Source of the DNA: Paenibacillus urinalis
GTDB lineage: Bacteria > Bacillota > Bacilli > Paenibacillales > Paenibacillaceae
NCBI RefSeq assembly: GCF_028747985.1
Contig: NZ_CP118108.1
Coordinates: forward strand, 3,229,501-3,293,500
Length of the DNA: 64,000 bases
Direction of reading: 5' to 3'
Part shown: in pieces, positions 2,096-62,194 of the stretch
How positions within the stretch are numbered: position 1 is the first letter of the stretch
Layout of the letters: every line of letters starts with the position of its first letter
Program-made: the position numbers and the translations under genes
The notes under the pieces: model-generated
Database searches by the model: none
Seen by the model: only the letters and a program-made list of their open reading frames with translations
What the model was told of the DNA's origin: nothing

Positions 2096-2127
2096 AGCGT
2101 TAACTTTAGGAACGGAGGGATACCGCT

Positions 2128-2172
2128 ATGATTAATTGGATTCGAGTTAGATTTTCTTTTGCCCTTAACTAA
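2128..2172 (+). CDS. hflX leader peptide, 14 residues with Arg-Val-Arg motif
   Basis: ATG at 2128 follows GGAGGG at good spacing and opens a 14-codon frame, MINWIRVRFSFALN, ending TAA. The IRVRF core resembles the MRLRF core of the ermD leader peptide, where the Arg-X-Arg motif makes macrolide-bound ribosomes stall. A stalled ribosome at codons 6-8 would change folding of the RNA just downstream. The frame, ribosome site and motif are seen; macrolide-dependent stalling is inferred from the known Arg/Lys-X-Arg/Lys rule. Confidence 0.72.
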   Translation: MINWIRVRFSFALN

Positions 2173-2398
2173 ATAGGCAAAGACTCTGCTCTTATGTGTA
2201 AGGCAGAGAACTCGGATTCGATCTATCCATACGCTGGTATTTCACAGAAGATAGACGAAGAGGACAGGAGTGAGATCCCTGGCCTTTTTTCTTATACAAA
2301 TAAACGGGTGTGCCCTTTACCATGCCGATTGCGCGCTGTGATTCTAGGACACTACCTGGCTGTATTCCCGTTGTAACTCCGAGTTCTCTTGAACCTGT

Positions 2399-2430
2399 AC
2401 ACAGGCAGAAGGTTTAGCCTGTGTTTTTTT
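2399..2430 (+). terminator. Intrinsic terminator between hflX leader and hflX
   Basis: ACACAGGC (2399-2406) pairs with GCCTGTGT (2417-2424) around a 10-base loop and runs directly into a tract of T residues. It lies 30 bases upstream of the hflX ribosome site, so by default it would stop transcription before the gene. Confidence 0.82.
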
Positions 2431-2464
2431 ATATTTCAGGTGTAATCATAAGGAGGACGATGGT

Positions 2465-3736
2465 ATGACACAACCATTTAAAGATAAAGCAGTAATTATA
2501 GGACTACAAATGAACGGCCAAGAGGATTTCGAGCACTCCATGGAGGAGCTTGGTAATCTGGCTAACGCTTGCGACATCGAGGTCGCAGCCGTGCTTACAC
2601 AGAAGGCTGAGCGAATTCACCCGGCTCACTATATAGGCAGCGGCAAGATTGAGGAGCTCTCTGATCTGCTGAAGATGCTGGAGACCACCATTGTGATCTT
2701 TAATGATGAGCTCTCTCCTTCTCAGGTTCGCAATCTGGAGAAGAGACTGGATGCGGCTGTGCTGGACCGGACAACACTAATCCTGAATATCTTTGCCGAG
2801 CGTGCGAGATCTAGAGAATCCCAGCTCCAGGTAGAGCTGGCTAGGCTTCAATATGTACTCCCAAGATTGTCCGGAATCAGCTCTTCCTCAGGCAGACAGC
2901 GCGGCGGGGTCGGCACGAAGAACAGAGGTTCAGGAGAAACCAAGCTGGAGCTAAGCCAAAGACGGATCGAAGAGAAGATTACAGAGCTGAACCGTGAACT
3001 GGAGCTGCTCGTTTCCCAGCGCCAAACGCAGCGCCGTCGCCGCCAAAAGACAGAAATGCCGGTCGTGAGCCTGGTCGGCTATACGAATACAGGCAAATCC
3101 AGTCTCATGAATGCCATGCTTGATAAATACGATGCTGCAAGTGACAAGGCTGTACTGGCTAAGGATATGCTCTTTGCCACCTTGCAGACTTCGGTAAGAC
3201 AAATCTCACTTCCAGATCGTAAGAGATTTCTTCTCACCGACACAGTTGGATTTGTTAGCAAGCTGCCGCATCATCTTGTAAAGGCTTTTCGTTCTACACT
3301 TGAAGAGGTGCTTGAATCCGATCTGCTCCTGCATGTTGTAGACGCGAGTAATTCCGATGCCGAGCAGCTCATTGAAGTGACCAATCAAACATTGAAGGAT
3401 CTCGGTGCCGATAAAATCCCGGTCGTCTATGTCTATAACAAAATCGACCTCAGCAGCGAATTGATGAAGGAAATACAGGTTCGTAGGCCAGCTGTCTTTG
3501 TATCGGCCAAAACAGGTCAAGGACTCGACCAGCTGGAAGATGCCATTAAGGAGCAGCTGTTTGGGCATTATGAGCGAGTGGCGCTAAACATTCCATATGA
3601 CCAAGGACATCTGCTCTCCTATTTCCATGAGCATGCGAATGTCGAAACGGTTCTTTATGAAGAGGATGGTACGAAGCTGACCATTGAGGCTTCACCTGTT
3701 GAAGTGAAGAAATGGAGCCATCTGCAAGCAGAATAA
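2465..3736 (+). CDS. hflX: Ribosome-associated GTPase HflX
   Basis: The 423-residue protein carries the HflX layout: an N-terminal alpha/beta domain (residues about 10-115) ending in the YIGSGKIEEL and FNDELSPSQ blocks, a coiled-coil linker with the glycine-rich GRQRGGVGTKNRGSGETK loop (143-160), and the GTPase domain with G1 GYTNTGKS (205-212), G3 DTVGF (259-263), NKID and SAKTG. HflX splits stalled 70S ribosomes, and HflXr homologues give macrolide and lincosamide resistance. AAGGAGG precedes the ATG. The gene stands alone behind an attenuator, which fits an antibiotic-induced HflXr-like role, although sequence reading alone cannot separate HflX from HflXr. Confidence 0.94.
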   Translation: MTQPFKDKAVIIGLQMNGQEDFEHSMEELGNLANACDIEVAAVLTQKAERIHPAHYIGSGKIEELSDLLKMLETTIVIFNDELSPSQVRNLEKRLDAAVLDRTTLILNIFAERARSRESQLQVELARLQYVLPRLSGISSSSGRQRGGVGTKNRGSGETKLELSQRRIEEKITELNRELELLVSQRQTQRRRRQKTEMPVVSLVGYTNTGKSSLMNAMLDKYDAASDKAVLAKDMLFATLQTSVRQISLPDRKRFLLTDTVGFVSKLPHHLVKAFRSTLEEVLESDLLLHVVDASNSDAEQLIEVTNQTLKDLGADKIPVVYVYNKIDLSSELMKEIQVRRPAVFVSAKTGQGLDQLEDAIKEQLFGHYERVALNIPYDQGHLLSYFHEHANVETVLYEEDGTKLTIEASPVEVKKWSHLQAE

Positions 3737-3746
3737 AAAAGTTTAA

Positions 3747-3789
3747 AAAATAGCCAATCCCTTGTTATAATTAAGGGATTGGCTATTTT
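3747..3789. terminator. Bidirectional terminator between hflX and bshB2
   Basis: A 17-bp perfect stem (3747-3763 with 3773-3789) around a 9-base loop has an A-tract on the left arm and a T-tract on the right, so it can end both the plus-strand hflX transcript and the converging minus-strand yojF-bshB2 transcript. Confidence 0.88.
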
Positions 3790-3833
3790 CCTTATTATCC
3801 GTATAAGCGTGAGTATTCGTTATATCCTCAGCA

Positions 3834-60296: not shown

Positions 60297-62067
60297 GCCT
60301 GCGTCCCTCCTCTTGTGTTAATGGTTTAAAGCTTAGCTCAATACACGTACCCTTCCCTGGAATGCTGGCAATCTGAAATCTGCTTGAGGATCCATAATAG
60401 AGCCGCAGCCTTTCCTTCACATTGCTCAAACCATAACCATGCTCGATTGCTGCCGGGTCTTCAATTCCCACCCCGTCATCCTCAACACGAAATACAATGA
60501 ATTCACCTTCTCTTCGTCCTGTCAGCCGAATCCGGCCTTCCCCAACTTTGGGCTCGAGTCCATGATAAATTGCATTTTCAACCAGCGGCTGCAGAAGCAG
60601 CTTGATCATCTCCATGCTCATCATGGATTCTTCGATGTCCTCCTCAAAGTGAAAACGGTTATTGTACCGGATATTTTGAATGTTCAAGTAATGCTTAATA
60701 TGCTGCAGCTCTTTAAAAATAGGAATCAGCTCTTTGCCCTTGTTCAGGCTAAGCTTAAAGCTCTCGGATAAAGAAATAGCCATCTGAGCGGCCTCCGGAC
60801 TTCCCTTGAGCATGGCCATCCAATAGATGGAATCAAGCGTGTTATATAAGAAATGCGGCTTGATCTGTGCCTGTAGTGCCCTTAGCTCAGCTTCCCTTTC
60901 CTTAAGTACAAGGGACACGACTTTTTCATTCAGTTCATCATTTTCAGAAGCCATACGCTTAAAAGTCTCGCCGATGACACCGACTTCATCCTGCTCAAAT
61001 GTAGCCGTGAACTCTCTTTTTCCTTTGTTCCATTCCATCATCATTTTTTTAATCGAGATCAGCGGTTTGGTAATGGTGCCGGACAATATGTACGACAGAA
61101 CAAGAGCGGTAAGTGAAATTAACAGTGCAATGACCATAGTTGCCGTACCGATCCGGTTTGACTCTGCCAGCAGCTCCTTCTTCTGTACTGAATGAATAAA
61201 GGTCCAATTCGTCGTCTCGTTCCGATAGGAGCTTACCAGATATTTTTCCTCCTTTAATTTTTGAATCGCTTCACTGGCAGAGCTGTATGGAGAGACCAGA
61301 TGATCTCCTTCCGAGGCGTCAGGAAATACGACCCTGCTTCTCAGCTGCGTATCCTCAATTGCCATATAGCTTCCGGTATGGTGATGAACATTAAATGCAC
61401 TGTCAAATATATTTTTGGATACATTGACAATAATCACGCCCAAGCTCTCTCCATTCATACCTTCCGAATCTCGAAACAGCTTGATGGTCGAGAAGGAATC
61501 TTTCGTATCACTAAGCACGTCTGTTCCATAAAAAATGACTCTACCCTCGGCGTTAACGGCCTTTTGGTACCATTCTGCATTTTGAATCTGTGTTATTTTC
61601 GTATCATGCTCATATGTGCCTGCATCGTCTGAGCGGCCTAAACAGTAGATTTGAAAGTGATAATCCAGTATGCAGATGGAATTAACGAAGCGGTTGTCCA
61701 GGAGATGGGTATTGATAACACGCTGAATTTGAGCAGCCATTCGCTCACTTGTTCCCGATGGTGAAGCCGCTTGCTCACCGTTCTTGATATGTATAAGCTC
61801 ATTGCGAATCGATTCATTAAGCACTAGAGCCCGATTCAGATTGATTAAATTACGAAATAACAAATCTGCCATCTCGCTAGCCGTCTTTAAATGATCGGAA
61901 TTGGTCTGCGCATGAGTTCGCATCATTGTATTTGTAGTCGTTTGAAAGGAGAAATAGCCGAGAATAAACAAAGGAGGGATCGATAGAGCAATCATTGCAA
62001 ATAAAAACCGGGTTCTCAGCTTCTTGAAACGTATAGAACTCACGAGAAAGCGTTTCCAATTATTCAT
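60289..62067 (-). CDS. Sensor histidine kinase, YesM-like
   Basis: 592 residues: a membrane helix at 20-40, an extracytoplasmic sensor domain (45-305), a second helix around 310, HAMP (SGTITKPLISIKKMMMEW), the phosphoacceptor block LQAQIKPHFLYNTLDSIYWM (His in QIKPHFLYN) and the ATPase blocks LVENAIYHGLEPK and GVGIEDPAAIEHGYGLSNVKERL. This His-kinase 5 form without DHp coiled coil is typical of YesM. The signal is likely an oligosaccharide outside the cell. GGAGG precedes the start. Confidence 0.92.
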   Translation of the reverse strand: MNNWKRFLVSSIRFKKLRTRFLFAMIALSIPPLFILGYFSFQTTTNTMMRTHAQTNSDHLKTASEMADLLFRNLINLNRALVLNESIRNELIHIKNGEQAASPSGTSERMAAQIQRVINTHLLDNRFVNSICILDYHFQIYCLGRSDDAGTYEHDTKITQIQNAEWYQKAVNAEGRVIFYGTDVLSDTKDSFSTIKLFRDSEGMNGESLGVIIVNVSKNIFDSAFNVHHHTGSYMAIEDTQLRSRVVFPDASEGDHLVSPYSSASEAIQKLKEEKYLVSSYRNETTNWTFIHSVQKKELLAESNRIGTATMVIALLISLTALVLSYILSGTITKPLISIKKMMMEWNKGKREFTATFEQDEVGVIGETFKRMASENDELNEKVVSLVLKEREAELRALQAQIKPHFLYNTLDSIYWMAMLKGSPEAAQMAISLSESFKLSLNKGKELIPIFKELQHIKHYLNIQNIRYNNRFHFEEDIEESMMSMEMIKLLLQPLVENAIYHGLEPKVGEGRIRLTGRREGEFIVFRVEDDGVGIEDPAAIEHGYGLSNVKERLRLYYGSSSRFQIASIPGKGTCIELSFKPLTQEEGRRHA

Positions 62068-62194
62068 ACATAACCTCCTTTCCCTAATTATCTCGATGAG
62101 GATGAGCAGATTATATTACAATTTCATAGCATTGTTAAAGAATTTTCTCTTTTTGCCAATTCCACATTCGTCTAGATCAATTCCATATTTCTGT

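Follow-up and report, generated by a model that had tools for sequence, protein, structure and literature searches.

The subject of this study is a leader RNA of Paenibacillus urinalis and the hflX-type gene behind it. Both lie near the start of a 64,000-nucleotide stretch of contig NZ_CP118108.1 (assembly GCF_028747985.1, positions 3,229,501 to 3,293,500), hereafter the window, whose own numbering is used throughout; all features of the locus are on the forward strand. A promoter-like sequence was read at 2067–2095 (TTGAAT, 17 nucleotides, TAAGAT; 8 of 12 hexamer matches, with a preceding TGC as extended −10), and TGCTAAGAT at this candidate promoter is kept in those aligned relatives that extend far enough. 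The leader open reading frame (ORF), MINWIRVRFSFALN, spans 14 codons at 2128–2172 (ATG 2128–2130, TAA 2170–2172) and carries the putative arrest motif Arg6-Val7-Arg8. It is preceded by its own Shine-Dalgarno sequence, GGAGGG at 2114–2119, where GAACGGAGGG is well conserved in the leader alignment, A1. The gene (2465–3736, 423 amino acids) follows a Shine-Dalgarno sequence of its own, AAGGAGG at 2450–2456.

Between the ORF and the gene lie the parts of a candidate switch. Strand 1 (2135–2148), which contains the arrest codons, can pair with 2209–2222 of strand 3 (2205–2222) in the OFF state, and the predicted pairing probability for 2140–2148 is 0.98 when no ribosome is present. The other partner of strand 3 is strand 4, where TCCGAGTTCTCT at 2378–2389 is exactly complementary over 12 bases to AGAGAACTCGGA at 2205–2216. 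Hairpin P2 (2184–2208; arms CTCTGC 2184–2189 and GCAGAG 2203–2208) exposes a loop, UGUGU at 2195–2199, whose predicted ON-state partner is ACACA at 2399–2403. This is the 5′ arm of T2, an intrinsic terminator at 2399–2430 built from ACACAGGC (2399–2406), GCCTGTGT (2417–2424) and a U-run to 2430. A second terminator-like hairpin, T1, formed by AGGACAGG and CCTGGCCT and followed by a U-run, lies at 2261–2290.

None of 100 dinucleotide shuffles folds as well as the leader region (z = −3.56). The 14-codon frame with its Shine-Dalgarno sequence, the hairpin, the 12-base complement and the terminator are all where the initial annotation had placed them; the loop–arm complement, the pairing of the arrest codons with 2209–2222, T1 and the standing of hflX as a second copy are parts that it missed. 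A generic promoter and terminator scan of 1980–2520 found no site; as we read its rules, T2 has a loop of 10 bases where at most 8 are allowed, and the promoter hexamers agree at 8 of 12 positions. Rfam 15 gave no family match in the window leader (E-values up to 1) or in the leaders of 11 relatives’ loci (E up to 0.5), on which ground a known riboswitch or T-box was rejected, and a blastn search of the window leader against plasmids returned no match.

With 436 bits, the protein encoded behind this leader passes the HflX model TIGR03156. Whereas an HflX match occurs in all 75 genomes of the genus, the window type is present in only 10 of them (55–100% identity), each of which also carries a copy at 41–43% identity; in the family, 184 of 295 genomes hold a match to the window HflX at E 1e-120 or better. 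The window protein scores 424 bits against PDB 8a57_D, which we take to be Listeria HflXr, compared with 286–287 bits against 8vkw, 8vio and 8kab and 279 against 5ady. For the housekeeping copy L027 the order is reversed (289 bits against 8a57_D, 311 against 8vkw and 299 against 5ady), the last two being presumably the mycobacterial and E. coli HflX. In a tree of 43 rows the second copies stand apart from housekeeping HflX (support 100/99). Given the bit-score order, the second-copy status and the tree split, the gene is identified on sequence grounds as hflXr, the resistance type; it is nearer to HflXr than to housekeeping HflX, and the housekeeping copy co-occurs with it.

Conservation of the leader peptide was assessed in 150 upstream regions of hflXr orthologues (the window, 36 genus and family loci, 80 further loci of the family and 33 from other families) with a rule that demands an ORF of 8–30 codons, a Shine-Dalgarno match of at least 5 bases and an R/K-x-R/K motif. 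Such ORFs were found in 112 of the 150 regions, against a mean of 11.2 and a maximum of 16 in 20 rounds of dinucleotide shuffling, 7 on the reverse strand and none in 20 upstream regions of housekeeping hflX. The peptides are of the kinds MINWIRVRFSFALN, MIDFIRVRTLRG, MINIKFRFTTLRG and MIDKAAFFHFGRIRLNVFDTN (start codon given as M), the last with its motif further in, outside the stretch covered by the rule. Their motifs include RVR, RIR, RLR, KFR, RSR, RVK and similar ones, and these six are forms permitted by macrolide arrest at +x+. Among leaders of all gene kinds, including those described below, the motif begins at residue 6 in 55 of 89, a count that leans towards 6 because, where several starts were possible, the one putting the motif nearest that residue was chosen. 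In the window, Arg6-x-Arg8 occupies exactly the stall positions of the ErmDL peptide: there, Arg6-Leu7-Arg8 is reported with Leu7 occupying the P site of the stalled ribosome and Arg8 its A site, and both erythromycin and telithromycin stall translation at positions 6–8 (PMC8298421). Judged by its sequence, the leader thus combines a short ORF and its own Shine-Dalgarno with what appears to be a known macrolide arrest motif near codons 6–8.

The switch is conserved along with the peptide. In an initial set of 37 loci, 36 have a terminator with a U-run before hflXr, of the CACAGG type or closely similar to it (for example CGCAGG or CACGGG), and that of the remaining locus was found by a later scan; the stretch from T2 to hflXr, unlike the terminator, is variable among relatives. 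The alternative helices were examined in 109 leaders with a CACAG-type terminator, the 3:4 duplex being taken as strand 3 plus loop against strand 4 plus terminator arm. Seven leaders lacking such a terminator (L146, L163, L167, L169, L170, L173 and L179) were left out of the switch, masking and loop tests, identical rows were collapsed in the duplex permutation tests and in the ribosome-mask test, and L091 was excluded from the leader set.

For helix 3:4, cognate strands of 101 distinct hflXr leaders had a mean energy of −23.4 kcal/mol, compared with −18.7 for permuted and −14.3 for shuffled strands, and none of 2000 permutations was as low; by class, permutations as low numbered 0 of 2000 for IRVR (58 leaders), 18 for KFR and 19 for GRIR. 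For helix 1:3, 90 distinct pairs gave −14.3 against −10.6 kcal/mol when permuted (0 of 2000 as low; IRVR 0, KFR 0, GRIR 126), and compensating changes run from GAGU:ACUC in IRVR leaders to GAUU:AAUC in L014 and CGUUU:AAACG in KFR leaders. Both helices, by these alignments and energies, covary across the family leaders. The P2 loop is the exact complement of the first five nucleotides of the terminator arm in 66 of the 109 leaders (shuffled loops: mean 2.0, maximum 6), and CGCAG arms are matched by CUGCG loops in L063 and L104. A chance long-range complement is ruled out by this conservation and covariation. The initial annotation had staked its case on the Arg-x-Arg motif and the long-range pairing being conserved in related genomes, and on covariation of that pairing; the motif and the pairing are conserved, and the pairing covaries. 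Its claim that the 12-base helix prevents termination needs amendment: alone, this competing helix would not touch the terminator. Helix 3:4 qualifies as antiterminator because the P2 loop UGUGU would pair with T2’s own 5′ arm ACACA.

Folding in silico reproduces the exchange for the window. In its partition function, T2 falls from 0.98 to 0.001 once 2113–2162 are masked, and helix 3:4 climbs from 0.00 to 0.96. Footprints of 31 nucleotides with the P site at any of codons 2–11 leave T2 at 0.12 or less, and those at codons 12–15 leave it at 0.29–0.75. Across 108 distinct hflXr leaders, T2 exceeds 0.5 without a ribosome in 100, and a control mask of equal length placed elsewhere (one per locus) brought it below 0.5 in 0 of 69. 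These folds and alignments point to an intrinsic terminator and a mutually exclusive antiterminator, both in the window and conserved in its relatives. With 45 of the 100 leaders flipped by a ribosome on the arrest motif, the mask test gives partial support, since equilibrium folding of the finished leader ignores the fact that strand 4 is made before the second arm of the terminator.

We conclude that the window leader is, very probably, an attenuator of hflXr transcription that works through the ribosome and responds to macrolide-type drugs. When no drug is present, ribosomes would clear the 14-codon ORF and the Arg-Val-Arg codons of strand 1 would pair with strand 3, keeping it from strand 4, so that T2 could form and transcription would end before hflXr. 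With drug, a ribosome would stall while its P site holds Val7 and its A site Arg8, cover strand 1 and free strand 3; strand 3 would then pair with strand 4, and the P2 loop with the 5′ arm of the terminator, blocking T2. HflXr would be made and would split drug-stalled ribosomes. The loop pairing suggests how a ribosome stalled some 250 bases upstream could dismantle a terminator. The basis of the attenuator reading lies in the parts themselves, their conservation and covariation in relatives, homology to a proven Listeria leader and the link to resistance genes; for the window organism itself, we infer the stalling, the termination, the identity of the inducer and the function of HflXr.

Several observations weigh against this conclusion. 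The leader rule found nothing in 33 of the 150 orthologous upstream regions, and one more (L091) was dropped as a false leader; the Arg-x-Arg of ErmDL is, moreover, described as non-essential for erythromycin (PMC8298421). Within the window’s own clade the permutation tests fail for both helices, with 2000 of 2000 permutations as low (3:4, cognate −28.7 against permuted −30.4; 1:3, −16.67 against −16.72). They fail because the clade sequences are nearly identical, and so they neither support nor exclude the switch; support for the window therefore rests on the wider family. The exact loop complement is present in only 2 of 8 distinct leaders with a CGCAG arm. RNAalifold on A1 detected little covariation (10 pairs, one with both sides changed), and its consensus did not recover helix 1:3, perhaps since the ORF classes align poorly. 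T2 is at or below 0.5 in 8 of the 108 leaders even without a ribosome, and masking the arrest motif put T2 below 0.5 in only 45 of the other 100, while 55 stayed at or above it. Finally, T1 is not switched in silico (0.75, against 0.74 with the ribosome mask in the window) and, if an efficient terminator, would leave the downstream switch rarely reached.

T1 could itself be the working terminator, with the 3:4/T2 arrangement secondary, although we consider this unlikely. T1 does have a U-run, and it is kept with paired changes in L007–L010; a T1-like hairpin is also the only terminator that the scan found before hflXr in L167, L173, L169, L179, L170 and L146. Yet L011–L013, in which T1 was not found, keep all else, and since ribosome masking leaves T1 unaffected, it could not by itself give regulation as modelled. 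Hairpins of this type, often GAGGG..CCCTC with a U-run, stand between the leader and the main terminator as a second hairpin in the window, L053, L156, L169, L170 and L173, and are the sole terminator found before hflXr in some loci of other families.

Control might also be mainly translational, with strand 4 sequestering the hflXr ribosome-binding site and T2 playing a minor part, a reading that we judge very unlikely. Classical erm leaders act on translation, and tlrB, as reported, uses both layers. In the OFF fold of the window, most of the hflXr Shine-Dalgarno sequence (2452–2456, probability 0.93–0.96) is taken up by pairing with 2385–2390 in strand 4, whereas in the stalled-ribosome fold this pairing is lost and the Shine-Dalgarno pairs diffusely, mostly with the U-run (0.65–0.87). 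This result comes from the window alone, however, and the terminator with its U-run is kept before hflXr almost throughout the loci first examined, whereas the sequence that separates T2 from the gene is variable; CACAG-type terminators also precede most of the other genes that carry the leader, the RlmA-II-like ones (1 of 5) excepted. A second, translational layer on top of termination is possible.

A covariance model, R1 (116 positions, built from 48 hflXr leaders), matches the rli80-hflXr leader of Listeria monocytogenes (L298:917-1044; 42.5 bits and E 2.2e-9 in a search of 10,854 bases with filters off). This hflXr-type locus comes from a plasmid-collection record, its protein is 49% identical, and its ORF, MRYIRLRFPKNLCN, fits the 14-residue rli80 peptide with its RLR motif; through R1, the window-type leaders are homologous to it in sequence and structure. 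For rli80-hflXr, RNA-seq and mutants demonstrate drug-dependent attenuation: the ORF is translated, lincomycin induction is lost in start-codon and antiterminator mutants, and an anti-antiterminator mutant is constitutive (Duval et al. 2018, PMC6310831). As described there, rli80 shares with the window a 14-residue ORF with R-x-R, an HflXr-type gene, transcription attenuation, and an antiterminator and anti-antiterminator, the latter inside the region spanned by the ORF (PMC6310831). It differs in that its terminator is not of the CACAGG type by eye and that loop-to-arm pairing is not evident in Listeria. We take the window element as the putative orthologue of rli80, within the rli80/ermK kind of drug-sensing, ribosome-mediated attenuators, and the initial annotation’s proposal of a ribosome-sensing attenuator before hflX is thereby strengthened.

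Other leaders resemble it in part. The ermD/ermK leaders of Bacillus licheniformis (MTHSMRLRFPTLNQ) likewise have Arg at codons 6 and 8, and ermK is reported to be under transcription attenuation (PMC4335068); they serve another gene, and the residues before Arg6 differ (INWI in the window, THSM in ermD/ermK). An erm gene found through R1 (L255) has the leader MTHSMRLRFPTLNR. The tlrB (yxjB) leader of Bacillus subtilis, MIIQFIRYR, is a short ORF with I-R-x-R near to the hflXr peptides, and stalls with the second Arg in the A site; unlike in the window, the stalled ribosome is described as blocking the terminator directly, together with RNA polymerase pausing and Shine-Dalgarno sequestration, and the available text describes no 3:4 helix (PMC6851288). 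The mef(E)/mel leader of Streptococcus pneumoniae, MTASMRLR, has a stall-driven antiterminator, and its RNA has, according to its authors, no homology to ermK RNA (PMC4335068).

Attenuators of this sort, then, are already known (ermK, tlrB, rli80, mef(E)). What is new, as judged by homology to R1, is a shared RNA family that precedes macrolide-resistance genes of six kinds. The ‘new leader class’ of the initial annotation accordingly falls within the known rli80/ermD-like class, which nonetheless includes this shared family; searches of open-access PMC papers showed no description of one, and Rfam 15 gave no match.

Run on whole genomes, R1 has matches in 53 of the 75 from the genus at E 0.1, in 80 of the 118 from the family at E 0.01, and, at E 0.001, in 83 of the 299 from the class, spread over 37 of 118 genera. 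Many genus genomes with a match have no hflXr, and some carry extra matches; in G001, which is the genome closest to the window, a second element precedes mph and has the ORF MLIAYIRLRNA (L231). We examined 107 matches, a part of the lists (30 from the genus, 10 from the family, 27 from the class and 40 picked from further rows), and a macrolide-resistance gene lay downstream in 104, on the same strand and within 1.5–2 kb, with none of the six kinds in the other 3. The genes are hflX (32), mph (34), erm (13), Msr-like ABC-F (11), macrolide esterase of the EstT/Mle type (9) and RlmA-II/TlrB-like methyltransferase (5). The hflX matches are partly circular because R1 was built on hflXr leaders; without them, 72 of 75 have a resistance gene downstream. 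A gene counted here is one within the stretch 3′ of the element, possibly not the next one. Names come from NCBIfam for 10 representatives only; the other loci were assigned by tblastn (E up to 1e-12) with these representatives and HflX as references. The erm and esterase representatives pass the curated cut-offs, the Mph and RlmA-II-like ones match only below them, and the ABC-F representative, truncated where its locus ends, passes the model for ribosome protection in general and falls short of the Msr one.

The R/K-x-R/K motif is present in leaders of hflX (31 of 32), mph (31 of 34), ABC-F (10 of 11), erm (12 of 13) and RlmA-II-like genes (5 of 5), and in none of 9 esterase leaders. CACAG-type terminators occur before esterase (9 of 9), mph (32 of 34), ABC-F (10 of 11), erm (10 of 13) and RlmA-II-like genes (1 of 5). 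Helix 1:3 holds before non-hflX genes as well (−20.0 against −16.1 permuted; 0 of 2000), in the 35 of 72 loci that have the exact model span.

This gene set also bears on whether the leader gauges arginine supply, as in amino-acid attenuation, or a general slowdown of translation. That is the least likely of the alternatives: its Arg codons do lie within the switching helix, as in biosynthetic attenuators, and a ribosome halted anywhere at codons 2–11 flips the window switch in silico, yet the KFR class has Lys for the first Arg, which an arginine sensor would not keep, and the genes that share the element (mph, erm, ABC-F, RlmA-II-like and esterase) include no arginine gene; an arginine attenuator as such was rejected on these grounds.

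Returning to the drug-sensing attenuator, the esterase leaders (L198, L238, L239, L240, L250, L253, L257, L260 and L261) retain the RNA element and the CACAG-type terminator with no Arg-x-Arg. By eye, eight of the nine have only a three-codon ORF (VLI, VLN, VAN or VID) after the same Shine-Dalgarno sequence; the ninth, L198, has VVNFSRLSKHCK. Some drugs of this class let the ribosome join six to eight residues before it halts, and others halt it earlier. The three-codon ORFs are perhaps sensors of drugs that halt synthesis after 2–4 residues; the NCBIfam model of the esterases is named for 16-membered macrolides.

A wider reading, to which we give an even chance taken as a whole, is that one homologous RNA switch is common to macrolide-resistance genes of six or more unrelated kinds in Bacilli, as a fixed chassis with an exchangeable sensor ORF that sets the drug. 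In the chassis, a hairpin loop would invade the CACAGG terminator, and strand 3 would be contested by the ORF and strand 4. The sensor would be Arg-x-Arg at about codons 5–8 for drugs that allow 6–8 residues, and the three-codon ORF before esterases for drugs that stop synthesis earlier. If true, the organism would answer one drug class with a coordinated set of resistance genes and no protein regulator. A single locus has led to a testable RNA family which, among the matches examined, is a highly specific marker of putatively inducible resistance to macrolides, and unannotated genes behind the element become candidates for macrolide-resistance functions. The family unites rli80 with ermD-like and other leaders, and its natural sets of arrest peptides could help in studying how the ribosome reads a drug class.

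A few loci depart from the common pattern. In L241 and L242 the element (mph-type and esterase-type leaders) persists although the resistance gene that it would precede looks truncated or absent, and the R1 match in L295 has the ORF MKMILLDSEIYVALLTE and is followed by no gene of the six kinds. Against plasmid hflX loci of Lysinibacillus and Paraclostridium, R1 gave no match in one case and, in the other, a hit at E 0.59 on the opposite strand. On the 25-kb plasmid of Paraclostridium bifermentans (L300:1002-1049), hflX lies beside a gene annotated rlmN, and the upstream ORF MMVICRGIFFLRLRG, seen by eye and with no R1 match, is perhaps an independent Arg-x-Arg leader. A second, weak R1 match in the window (61991–62084, minus strand, 21.6 bits, E 0.002) falls at the start of a long open frame and was taken as chance.

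Two minor features adjoin hflXr loci. In L053:4020-4115, about 600 bases upstream of the hflXr leader, two weak CRISPR-DR2 matches below the gathering score start 67 bases apart. In the window, a strong symmetrical hairpin, AATAGCCAATCCCTT..AAGGGATTGGCTATT, lies 3′ of hflXr at 3739–3798; it is probably a two-way terminator common to hflXr and the convergent bshB2, and yields a spurious sub-threshold Rfam match to the plastid psbA 3′ UTR.
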